A DNA stretch of 64,000 bases from Henricia sp. BOLD:AAB3569 (taxonomy: Eukaryota; Echinodermata; Asteroidea; Spinulosida; Echinasteridae), in contig JBBELK010000674.1 of assembly GCA_037783545.1 (NCBI GenBank), positions 248,001 through 312,000 on the forward strand, written 5' to 3'. A program made the translations under genes and the position numbers. Below the pieces are notes generated by a model. It saw only the letters and a program-made list of their open reading frames with translations, was not told the origin of the DNA and ran no database searches. Below are positions 15,710 through 28,430 of the stretch, in pieces (the first letter of the stretch is position 1; each line of letters opens with the position of its first letter).

Positions 15710-16495
15710 TTACATGTACATGTAGTTGCATATACAATTACAGCCTTGATAAGACTCTAACCGCTTGCGGGTAAAAATTATTGGTAAAACGAGTTGCTTT
15801 TGTTTTATGAGCGCAATAGCGACGACCTGACGGGAGCAATGTAAAAAGATCATTGGCTGATGTGTGGAATCTTGTGCAATGAGCTTGGGGCGTCGAAGCA
15901 AGCACTTCTCATGCACGCTCTCAAGTGAAGGCAAATCTGCATTTATAATTCTAGATGCAGTTCTGACCACACGATTTAGTCTGGCTTTATCCTTTGCAGA
16001 GGCACTGCCAAACCATATACAGTGATAGAAAATCACTGCTCTATATGAATTCACCATAGTCTGCTTACTCACACCAAACGCTTTAAGACGTCTCACAAAA
16101 TAGAGTTGGGCTTTCTTTATAATACAATTCTTATTCTCTGCCCATTTCAGATCGTGAGAGATAACAGTGCCTAAAAATTTAAATTGTTCAACATAATCAA
16201 CAGCTTGATTGTTGATCACAAGCTGCATGGGACAAAGGGAACTTTTTTTTCTTCTGAAGTCCACCACCATTTCCTTAGTTTTATCAACATTAAGGTCTAG
16301 ATTATTTTCCTCACACCACTTCTCCAGTTTGCTAACTTGGTCACGGTACTGTGTTTCATCATAATTTGTGATCAATCCCATAACTGGTGTATCGTCGGCA
16401 AACTTAATAACCTTAACGCTGTCGTAACTATTTGTGCAGTCGTGCGTGAATAATGAATACGAGGCTGGAGAAATGACAACCATGAGGTGTACCAA
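15710..16495 (-). pseudogene. Rex1-like reverse transcriptase, C-terminal half
   Basis: Open frame of 261 codons. About residues 30-36 hold the polymerase catalytic motif as FADDTPV (usual F/YADDT). Then come EKWCEENNLDLNVDKTKEM, VDFRRKK and FKFLGTVIS, the thumb and connection motifs of this family. The upstream fingers motifs are in other frames (16428-16670 includes a degraded GTPHGC..SSLVF in place of G.PQGC.LSP.LF). The protein cannot be made whole and the gene is dead. Confidence 0.7.
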
Positions 16496-18250: not shown

Positions 18251-18648
18251 TTTATTTACTTTCTCTTCTCAACCGCATGATACCCAGCACGATAGGAATG
18301 CGACAAAGGGACTCCCCTAACGGCCCTATACCTCAACACACTATTCTATTCCCTTTTGTTAACGCACCAACTCCTCTAAAATCTGAAAGGAATTACTTTG
18401 ACATTCCTTGGTTGTTTGAGACACAATGGGGGAACAATGGAGGGGCGTGGTATATCTTCTGCCACATATCGTGATGCATACAGGATGTGACTGCCAAAAA
18501 TACGAAGAGGACTTTCAGCCGAATTTGTTTTTACCGTCCATCCACTTTACACAAGAAAATAATGCCTGCTGGATTTTAAAGGTTTTCTGATATTGTTGCA
18601 TGTAGCGGAAATTTCTGCAGACTTTGTAGCAACACTCTTCTTTGTTAT
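18251..18648. other. Short unassigned gap
   Basis: No gene or known repeat seen between the LINE and the split-repeat element. Confidence 0.4.
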
Positions 18649-18953
18649 CAAATTTTATCACTCAATGATAAAATTATTTATAAACAGGAAGGGAGGTGTG
18701 TTTTGTTCACACAGGATATTGATATTTGGTCTTGCTTACTGGCAATTTGACTGTATTTCCAATGGCTGTTTAGGTTTTGGGTGGTTTTAGCTTGTGTGTG
18801 TGACTGTAACAGGAGTACCTAGCCTACTCTGGCCTAGGCCAATGAGAGCTAGGTTACATTCACAGTGTGTAGGATTTAGGCGGAAAGCTATAGCCATGTG
18901 GTCACTTTTGTCTCAGCCTTAAACTGCACAACATCTAATAATGAAAAGCTACA
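18649..18953 (+). repeat. Repeat A1
   Basis: Starts CAAATTTTATCACTCAATGA and ends AATGAAAAGCTACA. Nearly identical to A2 at 20695-21018, which has a 17-base and a 2-base insertion. Confidence 0.75.
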
Positions 18954-19232
18954 GTGCAGAGATAAACCACTTGTTGACAGTGGCTTTCTCACCTCACACT
19001 CAAAGGTCATATGCTTTTGGTTGGAATGCAATTTTAAGGTTCAGGCACGGTGAACAAATGTTCTGCACTGCTCAAAAAAGCATTGGCCTTTTCTGGACTG
19101 GAAGGTTCACATTACCGTGCCCATTCATTTCGTATTGGGGCAGCAACCACAGCCCATGAATTAGGGGTCCCACCAACGGACATGTTTACCTATATTCGTC
19201 CAACCCCGGTTGTGCACATGCCGGGGATTTAA
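18941..19232 (+). pseudogene. Tyrosine recombinase remnant
   Basis: Two frames give the start of the core-binding domain (LLTVAFSPHTQRSYAFGWN) and the end of the catalytic domain (GSHYRAHSFRIGAATTAH, then TYIRP). HSFR is the H-x-x-R box and the Y of YIRP fits the nucleophile of tyrosine recombinases. The middle of the enzyme, with the first catalytic arginine, is deleted, and a frameshift joins the parts. Not functional. Confidence 0.65.
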
Positions 19233-19284
19233 TCGGCTAGTGTTTTTCATCTGAAGCAGATATGCACGTCTGCTTCATTTTAAA

Positions 19285-19854
19285 TTGATCATCCATGTTC
19301 TTACAGGCCCTGTTTGGATCATTGGTGATTCACTTATCCACTGGGCAGTAGGACCCCTGGACCCCAACTTTCCAGTGTTGTGGCAGGGCAGGAGTGGAGC
19401 TGGTCTGCCCGATTTACCCGACCTACTGCAGACAATTCAAGGCCCTCCCCCTTCCATAATCATTGTCCACTTAGGCACAAATGATCTTGGGAAAGTTGAC
19501 TTTTTCTCCATACGGCAACGGGTGGTTGTTTGTATGCACTCATGTAAAAATAAATTCCCCAATGCAACTCTACTGTGGTCCGACATACTGCAACGAGCAT
19601 TTTATTTTGGGGCAAATCCTCAAGAAAGGATGGAAAAGCAAAGACGAGCTGTAAACAGGTCGGCCAGGTCTCGGTGTGGCAGAATTGGCGCCACTAGTGT
19701 TAGGCATGAGCAGTTCACTTGGACGGATTTCAGTTTGTTTAGACGTGATGGGGTTCAGTCCTTTCACCCACAGAAAATTCCATTCTTAGGGAAAACTTTC
19801 TCACAGCCATCAGACACTTGTATTAGTCATGGGGCTAGTATCGTCGGATTTTAG
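19285..19854 (+). pseudogene. SGNH-hydrolase-like protein of the element
   Basis: Open frame of 189 codons directly after the recombinase. Residues about 10-16 read WIIGDSL (block I, Gly-Asp-Ser nucleophile). Residues about 60-70 read IVHLGTNDLG (block III, Gly-x-Asn-Asp). RRDGVQSFHP near residue 155 stands where the catalytic Asp-x-x-His block is expected, and looks damaged. SGNH proteins are esterases or lipases. An SGNH frame next to a recombinase is, as I recall, common in Ngaro-type elements. It has no obvious ATG of its own and may have been the tail of a longer polyprotein. Confidence 0.6.
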
Positions 19855-19888
19855 TGCTGGGTCTTATTTGGGCCACGCATTGCGTGTA

Positions 19889-20694
19889 TGGCATTTTTGA
19901 GGCGGAATAAGCCAGCACAGTGTCTGTGGCTGAACTTTACTATTCTCACTTTCACATTTTAAGTTAACACTTTTAGACAATGCACCTTTTGTATATTAAT
20001 GTAGTTTAATCTAAATACGGAGTAATTTTTTCCCAGTGTTACAAGTATCAACTTTTCCCCTGAGTCAGTGCAACAGGGGAGGAGGACCGTTCTTTCTTTC
20101 TGTATGTGCAAACGTTGGAAAAGAACGGGGTCTGAAATACATGTATTCGAACAAAAGTTTGATAAAAGTTTGATTCACAAATATATTGTACAATTTGTAT
20201 GATATGGCATTTTTCTTCGCTAAAGTTGGAATCATTCAAGAAATGATTGGCCTGATTGTGTGTGGAATTGAGATGAGTGTGTTTTCTGGTTTATGCGTTT
20301 TGGAGCTGCCCCTTGCATCAAGCTGTGGTGCTCTGAGTTATTGGTGCTCAGAGCTTGTGGTGCTTTTGGGCTTTTGGTGCCCATACCATGCAAGGGGCCT
20401 TGCTAAAATTGGTACAAATGGATGGTGATACACGGCCCCTTGCATCAAGCTGTGGTGCTCTGAGTTATTGGTGCTCAGAGCTTGTGGTGCTTTTGGGCTT
20501 TTGGTGCCCATACCATGCAAGGGGCCTTGCTAAAATTGGTACAAATATGGATGGTGATACACGATTGTTTTGTCCCATAACCCCCTTTAACAAAAGGGGT
20601 AGGGAATGAAGTGCTTTAAATAAACTTTTTGGCTGAGGCGTGTAGTCACAACAAAAAGCTGGCTGTGTTTGTTTTATTCCTTGTCTGCTTATAA
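19889..20694 (+). repeat. Repeat B1 with internal 127-bp duplication
   Basis: Runs from TGGCATTTTTGAGGCGG to TTGTCTGCTTATAA. Units at 20309-20435 and 20436-20562 are a tandem pair that B2 has only once. Each unit contains the inverted pair CCCCTTGCAT...ATGCAAGGGG. Confidence 0.75.
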
Positions 20695-21018
20695 CAAATT
20701 TTATCACTCAATGATAAAATTATTTATAAACAGGAAGGGAGGTGTGTTTTGTTCACACAGGATATTGATATTTGGTCTTGCTTACTGGCAATTTGACTGT
20801 ACAAGTATGTTGTGTAAATTTCCAATGGCTGTTTAGGTTTTGGGTGGTTTTAGCTTGTGTGTGTGACTGTAACAGGAGTACCTAGCCTACTCTGGCCTAG
20901 GCCAATGAGAGCTAGGTTACATTCACAGTGTGTAGGATTTAGGCGGAAAGCTATATAGCCATGTGGTCACTTTTGTCTCAGCCTTAAACTGCACAACATC
21001 TAATAATGAAAAGCTACA
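20695..21018 (+). repeat. Repeat A2
   Basis: Copy of A1, directly following B1 with no gap. Confidence 0.75.
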
Positions 21019-21082
21019 TTCAGAATTAATTTTTTCCCGCCACCACCCCTACTCCCACCAATTTCCAAATATTCAACTTTTG

Positions 21083-21761
21083 TGGCATTTTTGAGGCGGA
21101 ATAAGCCAGCACAGTGTCTGTGGCTGAACTTTACTATTCTCACTTTCACATTTTAAGTTAACACTTTTAGACAATGCACCTTTTGTATATTAATGTAGTT
21201 TAATCTAAATACGGAGTAATTTTTTCCCAGTGTAACAAGTATCAACTTTTCCCCTGAGTCAGTGCAACAGGGGAGGAGGACCGTTCTTTCTTTCTGTATG
21301 TGCAAACGTTGGAAAAGAACGGGGTCTGAAATACATGTATTCGAACAAAAGTTTGATAAAAGTTTGATTCACAAATATATTGTACAATTTGTATGATATG
21401 GCATTTTTCTTCGCTAAAGTTGGAATCATTCAAGAAATGATTGGCCTGATTGTGTGTGGAATTGAGATGAGTGTGTTTTCTGGTTTATGCGTTTTGGAGC
21501 TGCCCCTTGCATCAAGCTGTGGTGCTCTGAGTTATTGGTGCTCAGAGCTTGTGGTGCTTTTGGGCTTTTGGTGCCCATACCATGCAAGGGGCCTTGCTAA
21601 AATTGGTACAAATATGGATGGTGATACACGATTGTTTTGTCCCATAACCCCCTTTAACAAAAGGGGTAGGGAATGAAGTGCTTTAAATAAACTTTTTGGC
21701 TGAGGCGTGTAGTCACAACAAAAAGCTGGCTGTGTTTGTTTTATTCCTTGTCTGCTTATAA
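21083..21761 (+). repeat. Repeat B2
   Basis: Copy of B1 without the extra 127-bp unit. The last shared base is 21761, taken as the element's right end. Confidence 0.75.
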
Positions 21762-22558
21762 GTTTGTAATATCGTTTCGCAGCAGAGGCATTATGTTTTC
21801 AAATAATTATGATACTGTAATACGCTCGCATATAAACCTACTTTATCTTTTATTTCAGTACTAGGTATAGTATACAATAATACTTCAGTTTCATACAATA
21901 TTATTATGACAGTCAATAATAACAGGCAGTGAGTATGACTTTTGTATAATGCATATGAATACATGCTTAATACAATACTGAGCGGGCTAGAATAATGTTA
22001 TAATTATTTATTGCAAATTAATAGTACACAAGGTATGCATTCGGGTATCCATAGATTAACTGCTAACATGTTCTTAAAATTAATAAGCTTCTTAATATAA
22101 AGTTTGTGGGATAATCCCTAGTAATTCGCTGTAATAAAGTATTTCGCCAAATCGACCCCCGAACTTGAAAGAAGGTGACTAGTCGAATAAAATATATGGG
22201 CCTATGTTGCCAGGTCGACCCATTTTACAAAATTATCTTGGTGACATAAATTATCTTGTCAAATCAATTTACCAGTTTTTTAAAAAGTTGGCAAACAATT
22301 TTATTTTGATATAAGTCACCTTACCAATAACTTTTATATAATGCAGTATCTAAATAATTAAATATGGTGGCAATCACAAAGCGCCATGTATAGTAGAAGC
22401 TCATTTATAAAACAACACAGAAGCAGGAATTGGAATAAGTATGAACATAATTTTCTTTAAAATGTTGTTAATTTTATGGCATCTTCGGCAACTAAGGCCC
22501 TTTATGCCATCAGTTATATTTTTTATCAACTTGAGATGACAAAGGAGTTGCAGTTTTC
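21762..22558. other. AT-rich non-coding stretch
   Basis: No frame, repeat or RNA gene recognised. Confidence 0.4.
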
Positions 22559-24535: not shown

Positions 24536-25145
24536 CGCCGAATTAAGTAATCCATAATATTACGAATTAGTAATCATAATATTACGAAATACTTAATTCG
24601 CGTAAACGAATTAAATTCTACTAATTCGTAAACTACTAATTCGTATTTACGAATTAATAAACCGTAATACTTAATCTGTACGAAATACTTAAAGGCACAG
24701 GCTCGTCATCGCGCGCGTGAGGCCAAATTCGTGCCACGAATTACCCAGCTCCATGCCTTTGCTATGGAGCTGCGTATTTCGTGGCACGAATTTGGCCTTA
24801 CGCGCGCACTGACGAGCCTCTGCCTTTAATTACGGATTACTAATTCGTAATTACGAATTACTTATTTCGTAATTACGAATTACTTATTTCGTAATTACGA
24901 ATTACTTATTTCGTAATTACGAATTACTTATTTTGTAATTACGAATTACTTATTTCGTAATTACGAATTACTTATTTCGTAATTACGAATTACTTATTTC
25001 GTAATTACGAATTACTAATTTCGTAAATACGAATTACTTATTTCGTAATTACGAATTACTTTTTTCGTAATTACGAATTACATATTTCGTAATTACGAAT
25101 TACTTATTTCGTAATTACGGATTAATTCTTAATTACGAATTATTA
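24536..25145. repeat. 22-bp palindrome-rich satellite array
   Basis: The unit CGTAATTACGAATTACTTATTT repeats about 12 times between 24846 and 25120, with more degenerate units from 24536 to 24690. Each unit contains the near-palindrome GTAATTACGAATTAC. A 133-bp TTAA hairpin MITE sits inside the array. Confidence 0.8.
24693..24825. mobile_element. TTAA hairpin MITE, family T2 copy 1
   Basis: A 133-bp near-perfect palindrome starting AGGCACAGGCTCGTCA, with TTAA at 24689-24692 and 24826-24829. Identical in length and structure to 48853-48985. Confidence 0.75.
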
Positions 25146-26774: not shown

Positions 26775-27110
26775 TCACCGCTTACGACTGGTCCCACACC
26801 GTTTTCGAATCAGGTACAGAACGATATCGTCATGTCCCCCGTAGGCTGCTATATGCAGGGCGTTCCAACCGTCTCGATTTGCAAGACGAACGTCCGCTCC
26901 GAACTGCACCAACAGTTTAACAAGCTCCAAGTTGCCCACCAGGACACTCTGGTGGAGCGGCGTCTGGCCCTCTCCGTCAAAGACATTCACGTTGACCGTG
27001 CCTGCTATGATATTGCCGTTGAGTAGGCGGGTCAGCTCCTTCGGGTCTCCTCTGCGCACGGCCTCATGAAAACTGCTTTGCTGATTGGCGCGGACAGTGG
27101 TAGATGACAT
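26775..27110 (-). CDS. NRARP: Notch-regulated ankyrin repeat-containing protein (NRARP)
   Basis: Single-exon gene of 111 codons, close to the 114 of human NRARP. Family role: a small ankyrin protein that binds the Notch intracellular domain-CSL complex in the nucleus, promotes loss of the Notch fragment, and so damps signalling; it is itself a Notch target. Residues about 12-22 (SSFHEAVRRGD) match the vertebrate N-terminal block. Two ankyrin repeats follow, with GQTPLHQSV (about 48-56), NLELVKLLVQFGADVRLANR and DGWNALHIAAYGGH (about 79-92), then DIVLYLIRKR. The tail CGTSRKR is basic. An upstream in-frame ATG at 27146 would add 12 residues; the inner ATG is preferred because its N-terminus aligns better with vertebrate NRARP. 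No breaks or missing motifs. Confidence 0.9.
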   Translation of the reverse strand: MSSTTVRANQQSSFHEAVRRGDPKELTRLLNGNIIAGTVNVNVFDGEGQTPLHQSVLVGNLELVKLLVQFGADVRLANRDGWNALHIAAYGGHDDIVLYLIRKRCGTSRKR

Positions 27111-28430
27111 GTTACATCCACGAACAGCGAGTATATACACTTTCAAATCCCGGCCAGAGATACCTATATTAGATTGTTGTTAATGCAAATTACAGAACCA
27201 ATACGTGTCTTCTTCTCCCTGCTGTGTTTATGTCGTGCTCCTTCCAGTGTGATTTCATTCCACGACTGATGCCGATTATAGATTAGACGATTTGATTTGA
27301 TTAACACTTAACGACACAGTCAACTCGACTCCGCGGCTTCATTAAAACTAACACAGTGTTCTTTATTGACGTGCCGCACTTTTTTTCCAGCAATGGGACA
27401 TAAGGCATCTAACATTTGGCCAGATCATACTTACTGTACCTCTCACACATGCGGCCATCAAAAGAATAATATTGGACCCCTGGTGAATAAAGGTCGGCGA
27501 TATTTCCATGATAAAGGGAGGGGAGGGGAGGTCTGCAGTGTGTAGCACGCTACTGATCAAGTGTGCAAATGTATGCTGGGACCACGGTTCCGCATCACCT
27601 TCGTGCACACGTGCAATGCATGCTGTCAGTGCGTTTGGTGTTATTCGCACGTACCCGCCACCGGAACCCGCTGCTATCCCCACTGTTGTGTGCAACACAC
27701 CGACCCATGTTTGAGGCTTATTGCCACCTTTTCAAAAGATCGTGGGAAAAACCAGAATCAGTGTTTACCAAAAGGTCTCCCTTTAGAAAAATTTTCAGTG
27801 ATTTTGCCCACGGAAGGATTAAGTTTGTAATAATAGGAACAATAGACACACACGGCAGCCACGGAACAGAAACCGGTCACAAGTTTGTTTTCATTGGTGA
27901 AATGGCAAACAATGACGCCGTCCGATAAAGTGGATGTACTAATCTTGTCATTGAAGTCCTTCGCAAATAAAAAAAGTCATAACAAATCAGTGACATTAGA
28001 TTTACAAACGTCAGACTTGTACATAAAGCCTCATGAATGTCGTGAAGCACTTGGGATACCCAAGAAGGCAGTCGACTCGAGCAAAGTCCATTTGGCTGTA
28101 AAATAGTCCCGACAGCCTAGAAGAAAATAAAAGTAAACACAAAACAAAACAAAACAAAAACAACAAAAATAATAACAAACAGGGAAACAAAATTTTAACA
28201 TTTTGTTCTGTATTGTCTCTCATTTGGGCACAACTATGTCAGAGGGGGACCTCATCCGATGTGTCCCAATTCTTTGAACTTTCAAGAAGTTTAGAGGCCA
28301 TTTGCCGGTGAAACTTTTTCACGAAGTCCTGGAACAACGAGTCAATGGCATGCATTCCATACAATAGGAATGATGGTAAATACATGTGTAGCTGGCAAAA
28401 AGTTCACTCACACCCATGCACTCATCTCTT
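27111..28430. other. NRARP upstream region
   Basis: No exon recognised. A TATATA word lies at 27132-27137, very close to the start codon, and may or may not act as a TATA box. Frames of 89-121 codons at 27363-28106 on both strands shadow each other and carry no family motif. Confidence 0.4.
27741..27749 (-). promoter_or_regulatory. Candidate CSL/Su(H) binding site upstream of NRARP
   Basis: CGTGGGAAA matches the CSL consensus YGTGRGAAM in full. It lies about 630 bases upstream of the NRARP start codon. Vertebrate NRARP is directly Notch-activated, so a site here fits. A single 9-mer can occur by chance and no paired site was found nearby. The motif is written on the plus strand; NRARP is on the minus strand. 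Confidence 0.45.

Follow-up and report, generated by a model that had tools for sequence, protein, structure and literature searches.

A decayed Ngaro-type retrotransposon with split direct repeats in Henricia sp., and its relatives in the same assembly

Repeat structure of the element

The window analysed here is a stretch of 64,000 nucleotides from Henricia sp. BOLD:AAB3569 (contig JBBELK010000674.1, positions 248,001 to 312,000). At positions 18649-21761 it contains near-identical direct repeats in the order A1-internal-B1-A2-B2. The A1 repeat (18649-18953, + strand) forms the 5' end of the element and is followed by an internal part of 935 bp (18954-19888), B1 (19889-20694, +), A2 (20695-21035, +), a spacer of 47 bp (21036-21082, +), and B2 (21083-21761, +), which forms the 3' end and finishes in TTATAA. 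The edges are exact to the base: A begins at C18649 and at C20695, B finishes at 20694 and at 21761, and B1 directly adjoins A2. The target trinucleotide TAT lies immediately 5' of A1 (18646-18648, +), and the right flank carries no TAN-anchored duplication.

An earlier note on this DNA had described the order and near identity of the repeats, and the alignments agreed with it. A1 and A2 had no substitution in 305 aligned bases and were separated by three gaps: 17 bp are gone inside A1, A2 has 2 additional bp, and A1 stops 17 nt short of the end of A. As A is about 338-341 bp long (B is about 677 bp), 17 of the 64 bp first placed between A2 and B2 belong to A, leaving the 47-bp spacer, which was also seen in other copies with A2-B2. 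B1 and B2 had one substitution in 679 bases. A chance origin of the repeats was ruled out by identical direct-repeat runs of 112-300 bases and by the recurrence of the same order at other loci.

B1 has one additional 127-bp unit and thus contains two tandem copies of a hairpin-rich unit of 127-129 bp (20308-20434 and 20435-20563, +). The two units are a 2-bp indel apart and only the second matches B2; thus, the tandem may be chimeric, with units from two B versions, and not a result of simple slippage. The B unit scores well in folding (z -2.5 and -2.6 for the + strand, -3.9 for the - strand). At the start of A is an inverted repeat of 10 bp with a 5-nt loop (18651-18675, +), which is present at the start of A2 too; its folding energy was unexceptional (z -0.87), and it is a possible candidate for a recombinase binding site. 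The search of 18600-21800 for known RNA families listed five matches, all far under the gathering scores.

Coding remnants and surroundings

The 935 bp of the internal part hold remnants of a recombinase and of an SGNH hydrolase, as the earlier note had proposed. The N-terminal (core-binding) remnant of the tyrosine recombinase (YR; 18954-19064, +) adjoins A1 through a deletion of about 3 kb, which starts close to the end of A1 and stops where YR begins, took gag, reverse transcriptase (RT), and RNase H, and has the microhomology ACA at its joint. The C-terminal catalytic remnant (19065-19232, +) follows a deletion of 613 bp (joint 19064/19065) and contains a private in-frame deletion of 33 nt (joint 19183/19184). 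The two YR pieces sit in different frames; they were recognised when aligned with L009, the full-length relative described below, and on their own gave no relevant Pfam match. As the window copy has lost gag, RT, and RNase H and its YR is broken, it is a non-autonomous derivative. The deletion joints carry 1-3 bp of microhomology. Splicing was rejected as the origin of the two large deletions, as the joints, compared by eye with L009, show no GT-AG boundaries.

The remnant of the SGNH/GDSL hydrolase ORF (19285-19854, +) has a C-terminal frame disturbed in comparison with L009, and its match to Lipase_GDSL_2 (PF13472) had an E-value of 1.4e-5, under the curated cut-off. With this ORF as the query, no relatives were found among viral contigs.

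A retroelement remnant (RVT_1, E 2e-8) lies at 15710-16495 (-), and a tandem array of a 22-bp AT-rich palindromic unit lies at 24819-25000, where the searched stretch ended, so that the array may continue. The ankyrin-repeat-like ORF at 26778-27179 (-) presumably resembles the animal Notch-regulated NRARP, pointing to an animal host. Further likely retroelement remnants, with reading frames that by eye resemble RT or integrase, are at 33-40 kb, 51-55 kb, 56-58 kb, and 62-64 kb.

Relatives in the host assembly

We searched the host assembly (740.7 Mb, 2104 contigs) with the element and obtained at least 81 matches (40 scored of 361 candidates). Pattern searches that allowed up to three mismatches found 59 B ends and 32 A starts. 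The earlier note had predicted that a full-length relative would have gag, RT, and RNase H between A1 and the recombinase, and L009 (C329, 6610 bp), which shares its A1 start and B2 end with the window copy, is a relative of this kind; both L009 and L010 (C451, 6633 bp) are arranged as A1-interior-B1-A2-spacer-B2. In L009, the sole relative of which the genes were examined, the stretch after A1 holds, ahead of B1, a gag-like ORF of 433 amino acids, RT (RVT_1, PF00078, E 2.6e-14), a weak match to RNase H (RVT_3, E 0.004, below the cut-off), and YR (Phage_integrase, PF00589, E 5.4e-8), followed by the SGNH ORF (PF13472, E 1.7e-9). The 433-amino-acid ORF had no Pfam match and contains a CCCH-like cluster. 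With respect to the methyltransferase domain of DIRS type, no methyltransferase family was included in the general Pfam matches of the ORF pieces of L009.

Twenty loci were fetched: the 3' side carries B1-A2 in eight of them, and the other 12 have one B only (these 12 include two loci that were each fetched twice). L015, L016, and the copies on C898/C1007 have A1 and a single B and lack A2-B2. Such copies could stem from recombination of B1 with B2 or from transcripts that stop at B1. L043 is a solo A-spacer-B copy of 1064 bp with a 47-bp spacer. A copy of 64 bp (L060, positions 101-164; G000:C514) consists of 48 nt of the A start and 16 nt of the B end with nothing between them, and has no TAN-anchored duplication. 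Many copies have an intact B end and no 5' part; as the B-end loci were chosen by the B-end pattern, they cannot reveal 3'-truncated copies. Among the A-start loci, L059, L063, and L068 stop within A, and on C6, C298, and C1051 there are diverged matches to the B-end pattern downstream of the A start.

These copies bear on the assignment of the element. Split repeats in the arrangement A1-ORFs-B1-A2-B2 were found in the window, L009, and L010; the order of gag-like ORF, RT/RNase H, and YR was found in L009; and an SGNH ORF follows YR in both L009 and the window. We regard the window element as almost certainly a member of the Ngaro group, which supports what the earlier note had concluded from the terminal structure. 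The note had named simple long terminal repeats (LTRs) or a tandem dimer as the patterns that would speak against it; the A/B split recurred in other copies, though single-B and solo A-spacer-B copies exist.

The solo A-spacer-B copy (L043) and the single-B copies with A-internal-B (L015 and L016) show that such units can stand alone, and the window structure might then be read as a tandem dimer that unequal recombination made from the independent units A-935-B and A-47-B. However, the order A1-internal-B1-A2-47 bp-B2 with the same spacer occurs at the independent sites L009 and L010, and B1-A2 junctions occur in eight of the 20 fetched loci, which makes a dimer very improbable. The retention of YR and SGNH without RT in the window copy would also suit the remnant of an LTR retrotransposon or a Crypton-like DNA element with direct repeats. 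This reading is excluded by the full-length relative, in which RT lies upstream of YR; in addition, the repeats are split and not simple LTRs, and copies with both ends show no TAN-anchored target duplication. We give it practically no credence.

Repeat identity and decay of the window copy

Within single copies, no difference between B1 and B2 was seen in the 677-679 bases of L009 to L012, nor between A1 and A2 of L009, L010, and the window. When copies are compared with each other, their B repeats are up to about 30 differences per 1000 bases apart (the partial B1 of L021 and L034 excluded), and some pairs of copies, such as L010 and L015, have identical B. In older copies B1 and B2 have drifted apart (7/627 in L013, 6/678 in L022, and 3/95 in L034). 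Identity within copies as opposed to difference between copies fits a process that would make the repeats alike at each round.

The interior of the window copy has decayed further than its repeats. Across 824 nt, eight substitutions and an insertion of 2 nt are private to it, and the paired repeats have one difference in 984 bases. If all eight substitutions postdated the insertion at one even rate, 19.1 differences would be expected in the repeats (Poisson P of one or fewer, 1e-7). The number of private interior changes was zero in L011, L014, and L015, one to three in L009, L010, L012, L016, and L023-L025, seven in L020, 13 in L026, 14 in L019, and 27 in L028, where rows of one locus (e.g., L017/L018) mask each other. 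A high count is thus not unique to the window copy, as four other copies have 7-27.

We searched the assembly for the deletion joints with up to three mismatches. The joint of the 613-bp YR deletion was found at two places, the window and L012 on C62, which have different right flanks. The joint between A1 and YR was found at one place, the window itself, and the 33-nt deletion was absent in the other 16 rows aligned there (including two pairs, each of one locus). As the interior decay greatly exceeds the divergence of the repeats and the YR deletion is common to an unrelated site, the insertion of an already decayed copy is favoured. We consider it likely that the window copy was inserted after its YR had been broken, and it was probably mobilised in trans by the enzymes of complete relatives.

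The earlier note had suggested recent movement as a non-autonomous element. The shared YR deletion and the excess of interior decay support such movement indirectly and make it likely. Several dispersed copies of the reduced structure were not found in the assembly; the 935-bp form is single-copy, so that this exact form may never have moved, and part of the deletion may postdate the insertion. Possibly, a full-length Ngaro element was inserted here, lost its interior in place without ever moving as a non-autonomous element, and had its repeats kept alike by gene conversion. The single occurrence of the A1|YR joint, the absence of the 33-nt deletion from the other 16 aligned rows, and the 1-3 bp of microhomology at the joints, which fits end-joining repair, are in keeping with loss in place. 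However, the YR deletion is common to the unrelated site on C62, the decay of the interior exceeds the divergence of the repeats, and conversion must have spared three unshared indels; loss in place is therefore unlikely. Incomplete gene conversion between A1 and A2 and between B1 and B2 is nevertheless the main alternative to the insertion of a decayed copy, and conversion could imitate youth; the unshared indels of 17 bp, 2 bp, and 127 bp argue that any such conversion was incomplete.

The A2 and B2 of the window copy are nearest to those of L021, which does not have the 613-bp YR deletion and has another one, but its YR deletion is common to L012. The copy is thus a mosaic to which no simple pedigree applies, and a likely origin of the mosaic is template switching between transcripts.

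Both flanks were searched in the assembly, and an empty allele of the insertion site was not found. The right flank gave only the match to itself, as did the 168 bp that adjoin the element on the left, save for one weak match of 78%. Further to the left, 18280-18480 is a high-copy repeat, found in at least 39 other places with 83-85% identity (40 scored of 2014 candidates).

We think it very probable, for the reading as a whole, that the window element is a decayed copy of an SGNH-bearing Ngaro-type tyrosine-recombinase retrotransposon, without gag, RT, RNase H, and most of YR, that was mobilised in trans. The copy has retained the parts that should act in cis, namely the A1 start, the B1-A2 junction, and the B2 end. 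The enzymes would have been provided by complete relatives. During reverse transcription, the internal B1-A2 copy would serve as the template for joining the ends, which would make A1 equal to A2 and B1 equal to B2 at each round. A putative circle with the junction TTATAA|CAAATTT would then be integrated by YR at a host TAN without target duplication.

Integration sites

Among 19 non-redundant left flanks of A starts, 16 have TA at -3/-2 (binomial p 6.9e-17), and 10 have TAA. The B end reads TTATAA in the listed loci, most of which had been detected through matches that end at this point; in L080 and L081 it is TTATGA. In the eight copies with both ends, TAN-anchored duplications of 4 nt or more were absent. 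L015 and L016, in which both ends are present, have unanchored matches of 3 and 2 nt.

In the model for DIRS1-like elements, as given in the available passages of the source, a 3-bp circular junction recombines with an identical trinucleotide of the target, and no duplication is formed (PMC3266345). The copies with both ends fit this model, in which the left TAN would come from the target and the right TAA from the element. In the available passages, the way in which Ngaro and DIRS elements integrate is a model based on sequence. The present assembly holds complete, single-B, solo, and truncated copies side by side, which makes this model testable: the points are the joint regeneration of the repeats, the TAN target, the lack of duplication in complete copies, and another signature in some truncated ones. 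The window copy, which seems to have moved after losing its recombinase, bears on whether Ngaro/DIRS enzymes work in trans.

Duplications in 5'-truncated copies

The 5'-truncated copies gave an unexpected result. In five of 37 rows (L020, L029, L032, L050, and L052), the left flank contains, immediately after a TAN, a duplicate of 5-8 bp of the right flank, where 0.22 duplications of this kind of at least 5 nt were expected (permutation p 2e-5); the TAN anchor and the length cut were picked after the flanks had been seen, and all p-values of this test are thus exploratory and post hoc. The 37 rows represent 36 loci, as L080 and L081 have identical flanks (their B match stops 2 nt early). The remaining 32 rows had no TAN-anchored duplication of 5 nt or more, and the rows added later (L076, L077, L079, L080, and L081) had none of 4 nt or more.

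For duplications of 4 bases in 32 loci, TA as the anchor gave six hits, compared with three in total for the other 15 dinucleotides. Unanchored 4-mers were not enriched (11/32 compared with 8.9 expected, p 0.25), unanchored 5-mers were mildly enriched (7/32 compared with 2.5, p 0.0085), and the mean unanchored length gave p 0.008, with three of 33 at 8 nt or more. The duplication abuts the element exactly in L020 only. In L032 and L050 it overlaps the aligned element by 2 nt; L029 and L052 have 10 and 3 unexplained nt, respectively, between the duplication and the element.

The following were left out of the test: L009, L010, L015, L016, and L043, which have both ends; L013 and L026, in which the 3' end is missing or outside the stretch; L017/L018, in which A1 was found later; L023, L037, and L039, which duplicate tested loci; L034, L042, and L051, in which the 5' end is outside the stretch; L048 and L057, with an unclear boundary; and L058, L078, and L082, which gave no usable alignment.

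These duplications may point to a second way in which incomplete cDNA is inserted. We tentatively put forward, with more doubt than confidence, a model of two routes, in which complete cDNA would be inserted by recombination at TAN without duplication, and 5'-truncated cDNA would be inserted by its B end at TAN, with its broken 5' end joined 5-8 bp downstream, so that those bases are duplicated. If true, one-ended cleavage by the recombinase or target-primed synthesis would be involved, and the length of the duplication would measure the spacing between the two cuts of the enzyme. No description of such duplications was found in the titles and abstract openings of the Ngaro papers that the searches listed; parts of PMC4157794, PMC3212892, and PMC2632668 were also drawn on. 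The element itself is ordinary in kind, as Ngaro elements are known, and the duplications are the part worth following.

Comparison with known systems

The available part of one source describes the Ngaro-like element DIRS-53_XT of Xenopus tropicalis, with A1 at the 5' end and B1-A2-B2 at the 3' end, a gag-like ORF, RT/RNase H, YR, and then an SGNH hydrolase ORF (PMC9210276). L009 has this arrangement. In DIRS-53_XT, however, A is 236 bp and B is 152 bp according to the same part (PMC9210276), whereas they are about 338 and 677 bp here, and the window copy differs from it by the loss of gag, RT, and RNase H and by its broken YR.

The Ngaro elements of Cafeteria burkhardae, in the portions of the paper at hand, share with ours the order A1-[ORFs]-B1A2B2, isolated AB repeats, and copies without the 5' part (ORF1), and no TAN-anchored duplications were found described in these portions (PMC8547959). 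The host is different, and neither "hydrolase" nor "lipase" occurs in the main text of that paper (PMC8547959).

With respect to DIRS1-like integration, the 3-bp junction without duplication, as presented in the excerpts of the source, matches TAN|CAAATT and TTATAA| of the present element (PMC3266345). DIRS1 differs in that it has inverted repeats (PMC3266345), and some of the 5'-truncated copies described here carry duplications.

Finally, SIRE is a non-autonomous relative of VIPER in Trypanosoma cruzi, and its short form corresponds to A2, about 30 bp, and B2, according to the sections of the source that were available (PMC6681497). The solo A-47 bp-B copy L043 is similar to this short form; in contrast, A1, B1, and coding remnants are still present in the window copy.
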